Below are positions 59,846-64,000 of a DNA stretch of 64,000 nt, piece by piece. The notes beneath the pieces were generated by a model, which had not been told where the DNA came from, did not search any database, and was given only the letters and a program-made list of their open reading frames with translations. Position 1 is the stretch's first letter, and each line of letters starts with the position of its first letter. The stretch lies in assembly GCF_031432975.1 (NCBI RefSeq), contig NZ_CP133838.1, positions 3,844,001-3,908,000 of the forward strand, read 5' to 3'. The translations under genes and the position numbers were made by a program. This DNA is from Buttiauxella selenatireducens. Its GTDB lineage: Bacteria > Pseudomonadota > Gammaproteobacteria > Enterobacterales > Enterobacteriaceae.

Positions 59846-59922
59846 GCGCCCTTAGCTCAGTTGGATAGAGCAACGGCCTTCTAAGCCGTAGGTCACAGGT
59901 TCGAGCCCTGTAGGGCGTACCA
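59846..59922 (+). tRNA. argU: tRNA-Arg (anticodon UCU)
   Basis: A 77-nt cloverleaf: acceptor GCGCCCT/AGGGCGT, D arm GCTC/GAGC, anticodon stem ACGGC/GCCGT with loop CTTCTAA (anticodon TCT), T arm ACAGG-TTCGAGC-CCTGT, and encoded CCA. It decodes AGA/AGG codons. Base pair 1-72 is G-U rather than G-C as in E. coli argU. argU is a known integration site (DLP12 in E. coli), and foreign-looking DNA starts just downstream here. Confidence 0.97.
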
Positions 59923-60348
59923 TTTAAATCAATGCGTTACGCAAACCCCTTCAGCAGTAATCACACAAAACAAAAATTCATGTAACGACTGGTGTAAGTA
60001 AATTCCATCAACATTTATCAATGCAAGTGTGAAGTAGCGAGCATCTCAACATGATGCTTTGCACTGATGTCACTCATTCACCCAATCAACTTCAAGCACT
60101 CAAACTAAAATGTACCCACAGATGCCATCGCAGAAGCCTTTGTGCCAGAGATAATGAAAGCGTCGCACGTTATGAATTCTCTGGAGCATGCTTTTACGCA
60201 TGGGCACCTTACACCACCAAATAACCTCACAGCTTTGTGAGGGACGTTAATCCGTTGAGATACGACTGAATGTGATTTCTATTGAACTTTAACCTACTGA
60301 TGTTCATAATGATCGGTTGCATAAATCAAGCAACAAGGTCGCACAGTT
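59923..60348. other. Gene-free region between argU and the methyltransferase
   Basis: About 425 bp. I found no integrase start, no second copy of the argU 3' end, and no convincing ORF. A 43-codon open stretch (60109-60240) has no ribosome site. The region likely contains the junction between chromosome backbone and island, plus the promoter of the downstream gene. Confidence 0.5.
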
Positions 60349-63300
60349 ATGAGTCAGTCCGCTTATGAAACTATACAAGAAAAACGTCTGAGACCTTGGC
60401 AGGGAGAAGAAGAAGTTCGATATATCTGGAATAAGGCCATCGAAGATGCGACCGGGCTGCATCTTAATGCTGAGAGAGACCGTAATGACGCTAGCTTGAA
60501 TCATGTCATTATTGAATACAAATCTCCGGGTTTTTTTAACGGCAAAAAAGATAGTCCTGCTTTCAAAAATGCCATGCAAGAACGCCTGTTACCTTATATT
60601 CAAAAAAAATCTGCTAAAACGGGAATACCAGAATCAGATTTCATCGGGATCGCTATTGATGGCGAGCACATTTGTTTCGCTCAAGTTGTTCACGGTGTCA
60701 TCAAAACGCAACATCTCATGCCCTTCTCTCCTGAATCTGTGGAGATGGTGCTGGATGCATTTCGTTCTGATACCCGCAAGGGATTAACAATTGAGAATTT
60801 ATTGGCTGATTTTGGACACGGTTCTCCGAATGCAAGAGCTTTTATGCAACACCTGTCTGATGGTTTAAGTCACTATTTAAACGCAGCAGGTCATAATAAG
60901 ATAAAAATGCTCTTTGAAGAATGGCGAACAATGTATGGGCAAGTTGCTGATATGTCTATTTCTCAGGCCGATGCAATCAACAAAGAACTAGCATTTGATT
61001 GGAAAGGTTGTAGTAGGGATTCAATTTCAGCACGGCTATTTGTTATCCATACATATAACTCAATGTTGATTAAGCTTCTTGCTGCTGAAATCATTGCTGC
61101 TCATGGTTTAACATCAACTGAACAACCAGCACAAAGCATGGCAGCATTGAAAAGTGATACGCAGATGCTTGATTTTTTGGATCAAGCCATTGAGCATTCA
61201 TTGCTGTTCAAAGAGGCCGGAATTAACGGGTTTGTCGAAGAAGCAATATTTAGTTGGTACCTTGATTTAGGAAAAGACAATGTAGTTGCAGGTTTATTAC
61301 CCGCTCTTCGTCGCTTACTTTCCATGCTCTCTCTATATCGACTAGACAGATTAGAACGAACCCGAGATGTGTTACGTGATTTATATCAGGGACTGGTCCC
61401 GGGTAAATTACGTCAGAGCCTTGGAGAATTTTACACCCCTGATTGGCTAGTAGATTTCACTCTCGCAAAGGCTGCTGATCATGACGTTTTACAGCAACGA
61501 GTACTGGATCCGACCTGCGGTTCAGGTGCTTTCTTACTGGCTGTAATACGGAAGAAACGTGAACTGGCAAACAGTGCAAACTGGGATGCCCGTAAGACCC
61601 TGAACTGCCTTTGTGAAAGTGTCTGGGGCTTTGATCTTAATCCATTAGCTGTGCAAACCGCACGAGTAAATTTTCTGATCGAAATTGCCGATCTTCTTGC
61701 ACTGTGTCCAGGCATTGAGTTTGAAGTTCCTGTTTTGATGGCTGACGCTATCTATTCACCTGCGGCCTCGCCAGACGATGCAACATCAGTAGTTGAATAC
61801 AAAATTGGTAGCCAAGTAGCAAAACTGGATATTCGATTACCAGCAGAACTAGCCTTAAATCGTGAATTACTCGATAGCGTATTCGAGCGCATGGGACAGG
61901 ACGTTGAACAGGGGCTTGAATATGTTGAGTCGAAGAAAAAAATCTTGGTTTACAAACTGATCGAACCACAAAAACTTGAACAGTGGGAAGAACCTTTACG
62001 CTACACATACGATCAAGTTCTTAATCTTCATAAAAAACAATGGAATGGGATTTGGTTTCGCATTGTCAGAAACTTTTTCTGGTCAGCCACTGCCGGTCAA
62101 TTTGACCTTATTATTGGCAATCCGCCTTGGGTTCGTTGGTCAAAGCTTCCAGACCTCTATCGTGAACGAGTAAAACCAACTTGCGAAGATTACGGTATTT
62201 TCTCAAAAACTAAGCGCCATGGCGGAAATGAGCTCGATATTTCAGCCATGATTACTTATACCGTATCAGATAAATGGCTGAAAAACGGCGGTAAACTTGC
62301 GTTCGTGATAACAGGATCATTATTTAAAAACCCATCATCAGCTGGGTTCAGGACATTCAAGCTTGAGCCAAAACGTAGTGATTCGTTGCATCTACAACCA
62401 CTCTCAGTGGATGACATGAAAGCTCTGAAGCCCTTCGAAGACGCAAGCAATCATACGACTATAGCTATCTTCCAAAAGACACCGACCGAAGCTAAATACC
62501 CTGTGACCTACCAGGTCTGGAAAGCTTGTGCTGGTGCGAAACGAGCTATTAAATCAAATCAATCACTTGACGTAGTGCTAACCCAAATACAATCGGAACA
62601 AAAAGAGGCTTTTCCCGTTGAGGAACCGGGATCACCTTGGGCAATTCTAACACCAGGAAGATTTGCATCGATTAAGTATTTGTCTCGCCAATGCTCATGG
62701 ACTAAAGGCCGTAAAGGGATCACAACTGATCTCAACGGGGTTTATTTTGTACCCGTCTTACAGAGCAACGGCAGTTTGGTTCAGATTCAAAGCCGTCCTG
62801 AAGCTGGTCGTAAAAATATCGGTCCTCAGAGACAAGCGTGGATTGAACCTGATCTGCTCTATCCACTTATTAAAGGAGCCGGGGATTTTGAAGAATGCTA
62901 TCTAAAACTAGATGCCCCAACCAATACTACTGAACGGCTTTATACTTTCGTCCCAAATACTGGCATATCATACTCAGATTATGCCGCAGCGGACAATGAA
63001 TTATATTCACCGAAACTAAAGAAGACAGCGGCTTGGTTTAAATCATATCAATTAATATTGCTTGACCGTTCAACATATCGGCTACAGATGAAAGGAGCAC
63101 CTTTTCACGCAATTTATAATGTTGGGGAATATACATTTAAGCCATGGAAAGTAATTTGGCCTGAAATGGCATCGTCATTCTATGCTGCGGTTGCAGGCGA
63201 AGCTGAAGTACCCATCGTTGGTACTCGTCCGTACATTCCTGACCACAAAGTTTACTTTGCCTCTTTTGATGATAAAGAAACTGCATGCTTTTTGTGCGGT

Positions 63301-63543
63301 TTACTAAACTCCTCTACGGTACAGGAATGGATTAACGCACATAACGTTTCAATTCAAATTGCCGATATCTTCAAGCATTTAGACCTCCCCAAGTATGATC
63401 CTTTAAATAAAGATCACAATAGAATGATTGAACTGGTTATGGCAGCTCATAGCGAACATAATAAATCATCACGCAAGAAATTGATTATAGAGATAAAATC
63501 CATATCTGATTTGCTGCTAACCGCATGGAGTAATACGTTTTAA
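60349..63543 (+). CDS. Single-chain type IIG-like restriction-modification enzyme
   Basis: 1064 residues. The N-terminal region (1-100) has a PD-(D/E)XK-like site: D47 and E56-x-K58 in NDASLNHVIIEYKSPG. A helical region (about 130-340) follows. The N6-adenine methyltransferase core has LGEFYTP (358-364, motif X), VLDPTCGSGAFLL (385-397, motif I), GFDLNPLAVQTARVN (motif II) and IIGNPPWVRW (588-597, motif IV). About 110 extra residues lie between motifs II and IV. The C-terminal third looks like a target-recognition domain (ILTPGRFASI, SFDDKETACFLCGLLNS). No signal peptide. A stand-alone methylase of a larger defence system is the alternative. A+T-rich relative to the neighbours. Confidence 0.8.
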   Translation: MSQSAYETIQEKRLRPWQGEEEVRYIWNKAIEDATGLHLNAERDRNDASLNHVIIEYKSPGFFNGKKDSPAFKNAMQERLLPYIQKKSAKTGIPESDFIGIAIDGEHICFAQVVHGVIKTQHLMPFSPESVEMVLDAFRSDTRKGLTIENLLADFGHGSPNARAFMQHLSDGLSHYLNAAGHNKIKMLFEEWRTMYGQVADMSISQADAINKELAFDWKGCSRDSISARLFVIHTYNSMLIKLLAAEIIAAHGLTSTEQPAQSMAALKSDTQMLDFLDQAIEHSLLFKEAGINGFVEEAIFSWYLDLGKDNVVAGLLPALRRLLSMLSLYRLDRLERTRDVLRDLYQGLVPGKLRQSLGEFYTPDWLVDFTLAKAADHDVLQQRVLDPTCGSGAFLLAVIRKKRELANSANWDARKTLNCLCESVWGFDLNPLAVQTARVNFLIEIADLLALCPGIEFEVPVLMADAIYSPAASPDDATSVVEYKIGSQVAKLDIRLPAELALNRELLDSVFERMGQDVEQGLEYVESKKKILVYKLIEPQKLEQWEEPLRYTYDQVLNLHKKQWNGIWFRIVRNFFWSATAGQFDLIIGNPPWVRWSKLPDLYRERVKPTCEDYGIFSKTKRHGGNELDISAMITYTVSDKWLKNGGKLAFVITGSLFKNPSSAGFRTFKLEPKRSDSLHLQPLSVDDMKALKPFEDASNHTTIAIFQKTPTEAKYPVTYQVWKACAGAKRAIKSNQSLDVVLTQIQSEQKEAFPVEEPGSPWAILTPGRFASIKYLSRQCSWTKGRKGITTDLNGVYFVPVLQSNGSLVQIQSRPEAGRKNIGPQRQAWIEPDLLYPLIKGAGDFEECYLKLDAPTNTTERLYTFVPNTGISYSDYAAADNELYSPKLKKTAAWFKSYQLILLDRSTYRLQMKGAPFHAIYNVGEYTFKPWKVIWPEMASSFYAAVAGEAEVPIVGTRPYIPDHKVYFASFDDKETACFLCGLLNSSTVQEWINAHNVSIQIADIFKHLDLPKYDPLNKDHNRMIELVMAAHSEHNKSSRKKLIIEIKSISDLLLTAWSNTF

Positions 63544-63591
63544 CTGGTTAATCTGCCAAAACGTAGAAATTTAGCCACTATCATTTTCTCT

Positions 63592-63623
63592 AATCACCTG
63601 CTCTAAAGCGCAGGTGATTTTTT
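63592..63623 (+). terminator. Terminator after the methyltransferase gene
   Basis: AATCACCTGC and GCAGGTGATT form a perfect 10-bp stem followed by a T6 run. The next gene therefore needs its own promoter. Confidence 0.9.
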
Positions 63624-63795
63624 ACTATGCTTATTTGACTTGAGGCTCGTCTCATGAAAAACGTTAACATTTAAAGTTATCGTCTTGTCGTTACGAAATT
63701 TTTGGCTTACGGATCACACGAATCATAATTATCAAAGCGTATACTCTGAGTTGTAACCACATAAGAGATAAGTATAAGTTTAACAAGGATTCATT

Positions 63796-64000
63796 ATGCT
63801 CCGAGCTGAATTTTTGCGCTTTTTGCAGACATTAAACACCGTAGGCATACCAAACGAAGTTCGAAAAATTGCGAATTTGGTATTGGCAAACCTAGATGCA
63901 ATAGAACCATTAGGTACTAACCAAGGGCAACGGGTTAAGCGTGTAGTAGCTCTAGCGCAAACTAACTGGGATTCACTTAGTTCAGAAATCCAACCACTAC
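63796..64000 (+). CDS. Unrecognised gene, 3' end outside window
   Basis: The ATG at 63796 has AAGGAT 5 bp upstream and is open for 68 codons to the window end. The product begins MLRAEFLRFLQTLNTVGIPN, followed by EVRKIANLVLANLDAIEPLG and a helical basic stretch QGQRVKRVVALAQTNW. No signal peptide or known motif is visible. It is soluble, probably helical at the N-terminus. Its place after a type IIG-like gene suggests a defence island partner (for example a helicase or nuclease), but nothing in the visible part proves it. Confidence 0.7.
   Translation, partial: MLRAEFLRFLQTLNTVGIPNEVRKIANLVLANLDAIEPLGTNQGQRVKRVVALAQTNWDSLSSEIQPL

Follow-up and report, generated by a model that had tools for sequence, protein, structure and literature searches.

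A genomic island at argU in Buttiauxella selenatireducens with a Type IIG restriction-modification enzyme and a rare ABC ATPase resembling RloC

The window, a 64-kb stretch of DNA analysed as a whole (positions 3844001-3908000 of the complete 5.22-Mb chromosome of Buttiauxella selenatireducens, genome G000), ends within an 8,520-bp genomic island of mobile type, borne by the tRNA gene argU and lacking an integrase, of which it holds the left end. This island probably carries two separate defence modules, a Type IIG restriction-modification (R-M) enzyme and a single-gene, RloC-like RNase, together with a small type VI secretion system (T6SS) Hcp cluster. The second defence gene is the part worth following; an earlier reading of the window, here called the original prediction, had left it as an unrecognised gene cut by the window end, and it has become a testable claim with named residues. 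Positions beyond the window are given on L009, a 20-kb stretch spanning its right end (window position = L009 position + 57999). The boundaries of the island and the features of its two large genes are as follows.

59846-59922, plus strand: argU, tRNA-Arg(UCU), the integration site (ARAGORN)
59878-59941, plus strand: left attachment core of 64 nt, with its start inside the argU anticodon loop (perfect repeat)
60349-63543, plus strand: gene for the Type IIG R-M enzyme of 1064 residues (PADLOC PDLC03630 and Pfam)
60487-60522, plus strand: PD-(D/E)xK-like nuclease motif, D47...E56-Y-K58 (invariant in five aligned sequences)
61507-61533, plus strand: methyltransferase motif I, DPTCGSGAF, residues 387-395 (alignment; DPTCGSG, residues 387-393, invariant in five sequences)
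62119-62130, plus strand: methyltransferase motif IV, NPPW, residues 591-594 (invariant in five aligned sequences)
63592-63629, plus strand: intrinsic-terminator-like hairpin and T run 3' of the Type IIG gene (terminator scan)
63699-63795, plus strand: upstream region conserved with five other copies of the ATPase gene (alignment)
63796-64000, plus strand, continuing to L009 8409 (66408 on the window scale): gene for the 870-residue ABC ATPase, its first 68 codons inside the window (open reading frame (ORF) in L009 and profiles)
L009 10399-10462 (68398-68461 on the window scale), beyond the window: right core, the identical 64 nt (perfect direct repeat)

An accessory island with defence-type genes had been proposed downstream of argU, and extension of the sequence to the right bore this out. 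A repeat search of L009 returned one perfect 64-nt direct repeat with copies 8,520 bp apart. Its left copy (L009 1879-1942) starts within argU, the only tRNA found by ARAGORN in the window, and extends to 19 nt beyond the tRNA end, and its right copy closes the island with the 3' end of argU. When argU loci were compared across the genus, the site was found to be empty in G300, a genome of the same species, in which the left flank joins the right flank through a single core with one mismatch (as read from the printed sequences), and searches of the 11 other genus genomes gave no DNA match to either defence gene. The shift to A+T-richer DNA after the tRNA was also seen, with G+C falling from 51-54% over the 2 kb to the left of argU to 37-44% within the island as measured per 1-kb window, although G+C alone is weak evidence because window stretches outside the island also dip to 43-46%. 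Codon use, which the original prediction had expected to be ordinary if these were core genes, is deviant instead: third-position G+C is 0.29 in the ATPase gene, 0.35 in the methyltransferase gene and 0.40-0.41 in three small genes, as against 0.48-0.67 in the 36 ORFs of at least 200 residues left of argU.

No integrase was found next to the tRNA, as had been stated, and the suggestion that one might lie at the far end failed, as none was recognised there or elsewhere between the cores among ORFs of at least 90 residues, judged with their profile matches. This absence is a point against the island reading and means that the mobility of the island is past or acts in trans. That argU is a used integration site in the genus follows from the congener G295, in which two argU cores flank phage genes and a tyrosine integrase adjoins the core (Pfam Phage_integrase, terminase and portal). 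The phage segment runs from L073 2524 to L074 8961 (G295:C1 about 2300979-2323461) with the integrase at L073 2627-3883 (Pfam Phage_integrase, 1.3e-12), and this enzyme is a candidate trans-acting integrase for the island cores. The 45-nt tRNA part of the core has two exact copies in G000 and two in G295; the remaining 10 of the 12 genus genomes have one apiece. The matched segment carries, alongside this tRNA, an annotated site-specific integrase in 39 of 40 listed E. coli records, which gave the best scores for the argU-folD stretch (about 82% identity) and are thus probably related. By eye, the sequence after the argU core differs among many genus genomes (L042, L044-L049, L051, L052, L061, L073 and L074), as expected of an integration hot spot.

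Loss of the segment by G300 through recombination between two older argU cores, with the segment being no recent gain of G000, is a possible but doubtful history, and one that would be compatible with the functional reading of the island genes. It draws on 147 nt just inside the left core that resemble the post-argU sequence of G301 (73%) and on 143 nt there that resemble the outer flank of the G295 argU prophage (68%). Against it stand the other 10 of 12 flanks examined, which gave no match to the left inner sequence of the island (several look mutually unrelated by eye), the deviant codon use, and the missing DNA matches of both defence genes across the genus.

The first defence gene encodes, to judge from its sequence, an ordinary Type IIG enzyme of a known kind, with predicted restriction and modification activities. 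The protein matched PADLOC PDLC03630 over nearly its full length (residues 20-1043, E 3.1e-239), and Pfam Eco57I and N6_Mtase were above cut-off. The nuclease-like motif and methyltransferase core reported earlier held up in an alignment with four homologues, with D47, E56, K58, DPTCGSG and NPPW invariant in all five sequences, but nothing was found beyond an ordinary Type IIG enzyme: it shares with PDLC03630 a PD-ExK motif and an N6-adenine methyltransferase in one chain, and no distinguishing feature was seen. The gene has its own terminator-like hairpin with a T run, also as described before, in a scan that yielded 19 such sites where 7.6 were expected. Homologues were found in 23 plasmid records at 1e-60, in 3 of 5,426 E. 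coli genomes and, at 1e-100, in 1 of 369 class genomes, namely its own. The neighbours in five inspected homologue records include recombinases, transposases or integrases, and both E. coli records among them also carry an ABC-three-component system. In these two (PapM-32-1, L067, and A3, L068, beside ssrA), the Type IIG homologue adjoins that system, and both lie in an island that bears an integrase; the middle component of the system appears in A3 as two shorter frames.

The second gene, which starts at 63796 and is indeed cut by the window end, encodes an ABC ATPase of Rad50/SMC-like type that has a CPAC zinc hook and ends in a helical domain. Pfam SMC_N, AAA_23 and AAA_21 were above cut-off in the 870-residue protein. 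The Walker A lysine, zinc-hook cysteines (C369-P-A-C372), signature and DD Walker B were kept in all 31 aligned ATPases, a set that includes two sequences of one protein differing by an end residue and 11 from viral contigs (L077-L080 and L082-L088, with L081, L089 and shorter matches left out). The residues invariant in all 31 are K116, C369, C372, S629, G631, D656, D657, D663, H690, R756, E760, W833, N837 and H841. When the C-terminal parts of 14 diverse members were aligned (down to 13% identity), R756, E760, W833, N837 and H841 were the sole invariant columns. An N-terminal helical segment of about 80 residues showed four invariant residues, including the start methionine, across 13 sequences and had no Pfam match. 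AlphaFold2 models reached a predicted local distance difference test (pLDDT) score of 83.8 and a predicted template modelling (pTM) score of 0.63 for the full-length protein, and pLDDT 83.3 and pTM 0.80 for the C-terminus, which forms six helices. Significant fold matches of the full-length model were led by Rad50/SMC proteins, with Lamassu chains among them, and phrog_77 (SbcC-like) matched the protein with E 1.9e-14. The profile and structure searches named the cut gene an ABC ATPase but did not place it in a system: matches in PADLOC were partial only (best LmuB, 4.9e-24; mad3, 1.1e-21), the best fold match of the C-terminus had E 0.16, and PADLOC-DB 2023, Pfam and NCBIfam assign the family to no system.

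In its architecture the ATPase looks like a distant cousin of RloC, a DNA-break-activated anticodon nuclease. In passages of PMC2610378 RloC is an ABC ATPase whose zinc hook is CX2C and whose catalytic triad is R-x3-E-x36-52-H; passages of PMC3874168 state that it becomes active with linear DNA plus ATP and, in cells, upon DNA breaks; parts of PMC3710099 assign the RNase domains of PrrC and RloC to the HEPN domains and describe ABC-HEPN fusions as a class. Shared with RloC (AAA_13 PF13166, PADLOC PDC-S06) are an ABC head split by a coiled coil with a CxxC hook, DD in Walker B, and a C-terminal domain with an invariant R-x3-E...H. For comparison, the RloC-type set consisted of seven PF13166 stretches taken from the family genomes, where 7 of 149 contain one; R-x3-E...H, CxxC and IDDP were present in all seven, and their sole invariant C-terminal columns were N, R, E, S and H. 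A full-length profile comparison of the two families gave a probability of 98.2 (E 6.1e-14) and placed H841 on the RloC-type histidine. The classical HEPN motif, Rx4-6H, is absent from the ATPase, which has W-x3-N-x3-H there and the R-x3-E...H arrangement of the PrrC/RloC branch instead. Foldseek ranked Csm6, a HEPN RNase, first among PDB matches of the C-terminal model, and ranks 4, 5, 6 and 8 were titled HEPN (three entries). This ranking indicates a HEPN-like fold of the C-terminus, which is probable, not proven.

A number of results weigh against this kinship and against a HEPN-like tail. The E-to-H spacing is 36-52 in RloC (38-43 in the seven PF13166 proteins) but 68-92 in the 31 ATPases, and the same full-length comparison did not align R756 and E760 to the RloC-type R and E. 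A comparison of the C-terminal profile of the ATPase with the RloC-type C-terminus was clearly negative (probability 1.4). The PDB matches of the C-terminal model were not significant, none of the 395 reaching E ≤0.001, a viral structure library gave nothing usable (best E 0.13, an unnamed protein), and residues 841-845 have pLDDT below 50 in the full-length model. No HEPN domain appeared in a Pfam scan of the C-terminal 150 residues, nor did a PDB profile search return anything (best E 0.15). A BLASTP comparison with the AAA ATPase of the APEC O1 P2-like prophage gave no more than two notable pieces, the P-loop region (E 0.007) and a YxNxG(T/S)H stretch of 11 residues (E 0.24). HEPN identity by sequence was rejected on the Pfam, PDB profile and C-terminal profile results. 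With the RloC-type alignment as query, the PDB profile search likewise gave 0 matches at 1e-10.

Further differences from RloC are the extra N-terminal helical segment, an AAA_13 score of 19.5 bits that falls short of the curated cut-off of 36, and a PDC-S06 match of 6.5e-10 with its best stretch at 610-700, as compared with 9e-235 to 3.1e-286 for four RloC-type proteins. The 870-residue protein is therefore, by spacing and profile cut-off, not RloC as defined; by analogy it is built like RloC and probably works like it. The APECO1_4465 and ERFG_01251 groups are likewise described in parts of PMC3710099 as ABC ATPases fused to a C-terminal HEPN domain, the former in prophages. The APEC O1 prophage ATPase mentioned above, matched to APECO1_4465 by position, is of PDC-S06 type and can hardly be aligned to the 870-residue protein; the ERFG_01251 group, compared by its published description only, may be identical with the present family. 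Lamassu LmuB is also an SMC/Rad50-like ATPase, many members having a zinc hook according to passages of PMC10586767, and it resembles the ATPase in profile (the partial match given above) and fold. It differs in that no LmuA or LmuC was recognised beside the ATPase, which has a C-terminal domain of its own. Lamassu membership was rejected: no LmuA was among the listed PADLOC matches of five island proteins (for one of the two large proteins the best 25 of 57, for the other the best 25 of 31), and no recurrent partner of the ATPase was seen in 21 annotated records. MADS membership was rejected as well, with only mad2-, mad3- and mad8-like matches in two island proteins and no multi-gene mad operon. 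No paper in the open-licence literature was recognised as describing the family, six homologue accessions were named in 0 papers, and the main text of PMC13092281 lacks the words rloc, rad50 and smc, its HEPN passages concerning other systems.

The ATPase family is rare and mobile. A plasmid search at 1e-30 found relatives in 25 of 72,556 records, 23 of them covering at least 80%; among E. coli genomes, 19 of 5,426 had one, with that coverage reached in 17. Further relatives came from 3 of 295 family genomes at 1e-40, including its own and one copy broken by stops, and from 3 of 369 class genomes at 1e-60, again with its own. Five loci came from a genome-contig database and 26 from a viral-contig database, whereas 50,697 phage records gave none at 1e-20. 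The broken copy, at G028:C1 1919979-1922579, is a degraded gene with several stops and one stop-free stretch at 77% identity. In Pseudomonadota the family is carried by plasmids, prophages and islands, with varied neighbours, and a plasmid of Bacillota carries it in at least one case; 19 of the 25 plasmid records were typed conjugative.

Neighbours were inspected in the 21 annotated records (15 plasmids and six E. coli chromosomes); plasmid annotation is incomplete, according to its source, and the neighbour counts in plasmid records rest on it. It is unlikely that the ATPase is a DNA repair factor or a plasmid or prophage maintenance factor of SbcC/Rad50 type instead of a defence protein. The Rad50/SMC fold matches, the phrog_77 match and the conjugative typing would all suit such a role, as would the presence, no farther than 5 kb away, of SOS-type genes (UmuD/C, DinI or SOS peptidase, pseudogenes included) in 6 of the 21 records, three of which represent one prophage type. 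Speaking against it are the rarity of the ATPase and the absence of an annotated SbcD/Mre11 gene adjacent to it in the 21 records. Upstream of the ATPase, moreover, no LexA-like box stood out: in each of 29 regions, 27 or more of 200 mononucleotide shuffles reached the level of the best site, and SOS control was rejected, both for the enterobacterial consensus only. In three E. coli records (L023, L118 and L119), the ATPase lies between remnants of an SOS peptidase and a DNA invertase at the tail-fibre end of a prophage.

The original prediction had also supposed that the second gene may be a partner of the methyltransferase in an undescribed system. A version in which the two form one obligate system, the ATPase being a Lamassu- or MADS-like sensor and the Type IIG protein the modifier or nuclease, is very unlikely. 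In its favour, the two genes are adjacent on one strand of one island, the Type IIG protein has a partial match to mad2 (7.1e-17) alongside those of the ATPase to LmuB and mad3, a restriction or R-M gene lies next to the ATPase, or with one ORF of under 100 residues between, in 4 of the 21 records, and in 2 of 5 records the Type IIG homologue has a different SMC-like ATPase nearby, the one belonging to the ABC-three-component system. One of the two ABC-three-component ATPases was tested and has ABC motifs in common with the 870-residue protein (BLASTP E 1e-6); it ends soon after Walker B, BLASTP showing no C-terminal domain of this kind, and these motifs are all that BLASTP found in common. 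Against the pairing, each of the four neighbouring R-M genes is of another type (Mrr-like, Pac25I/XcyI, BsuBI/PstI and MvaI/BcnI), and the other 17 records have none in that position; one of these has a lone DNA methyltransferase 1.3 kb from the ATPase, and another, at a distance of about 3 kb, a gene annotated as a restriction endonuclease among conjugation genes. The 21 ATPase records lack this Type IIG enzyme by annotation, the five Type IIG records lack this ATPase, and the match lists have no plasmid (25 and 23) or E. coli genome (19 and 3) in common. The obligate pair is disfavoured by this missing co-occurrence. The terminator after the Type IIG gene also speaks against it, as does the separate region of about 100 nt upstream of the ATPase, which is conserved in L009 and in five copies preceded by differing annotated genes (three, L010, L025 and L026, are similar farther upstream too), from which the ATPase likely has its own promoter.

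A speculative and rather improbable extension is that the family forms a separate DNA-end-sensing RNase lineage triggered by the cuts that a neighbouring restriction enzyme of any type makes in phage DNA; cutting and translation shutdown by the HEPN-like tail would then form a layered defence with interchangeable R-M systems. R-M adjacency as a rule was rejected, the 4 of 21 records having no background rate beside them, and no enrichment is claimed.

Under the preferred explanation of two separate modules, the Type IIG enzyme would methylate its own sites and cut unmodified invading DNA. The Rad50-type ABC ATPase would dimerise through its zinc hook and sense DNA ends, and ATP turnover would release the C-terminal HEPN-like RNase (R756, E760 and H841), which may cut an RNA, perhaps tRNA, so that translation stops. 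Trigger, RNA target and defence outcome are here inferred from RloC. If the ATPase is a break-activated RNase, DNA-damage-gated translation shutdown would be broader than RloC and PrrC.

The right part of the island holds three small genes, each recognised by a profile match.

L009 8736-9200: STM2901-family gene
L009 9194-9520: DUF1493 gene
L009 9543-10028: Hcp gene, followed by the right core

Together they are a small orphan T6SS-type Hcp cluster, for which no link to the defence genes was seen beyond the shared island. A search at 1e-15 gave STM2901 relatives in 32 of 119 family genomes, with three in G000. Near the right core, a 52-residue stop-to-stop frame on the minus strand (L009 10226-10384, window scale about 68225-68383) resembles the tail of a truncated gene and had no Pfam match. 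Elsewhere in the genome, an Hcp-like DNA match (G000:C1 1933193) and an STM2901-family match (1936716) lie about 3 kb apart, which suggests that the linkage of Hcp and STM2901 is recurrent.

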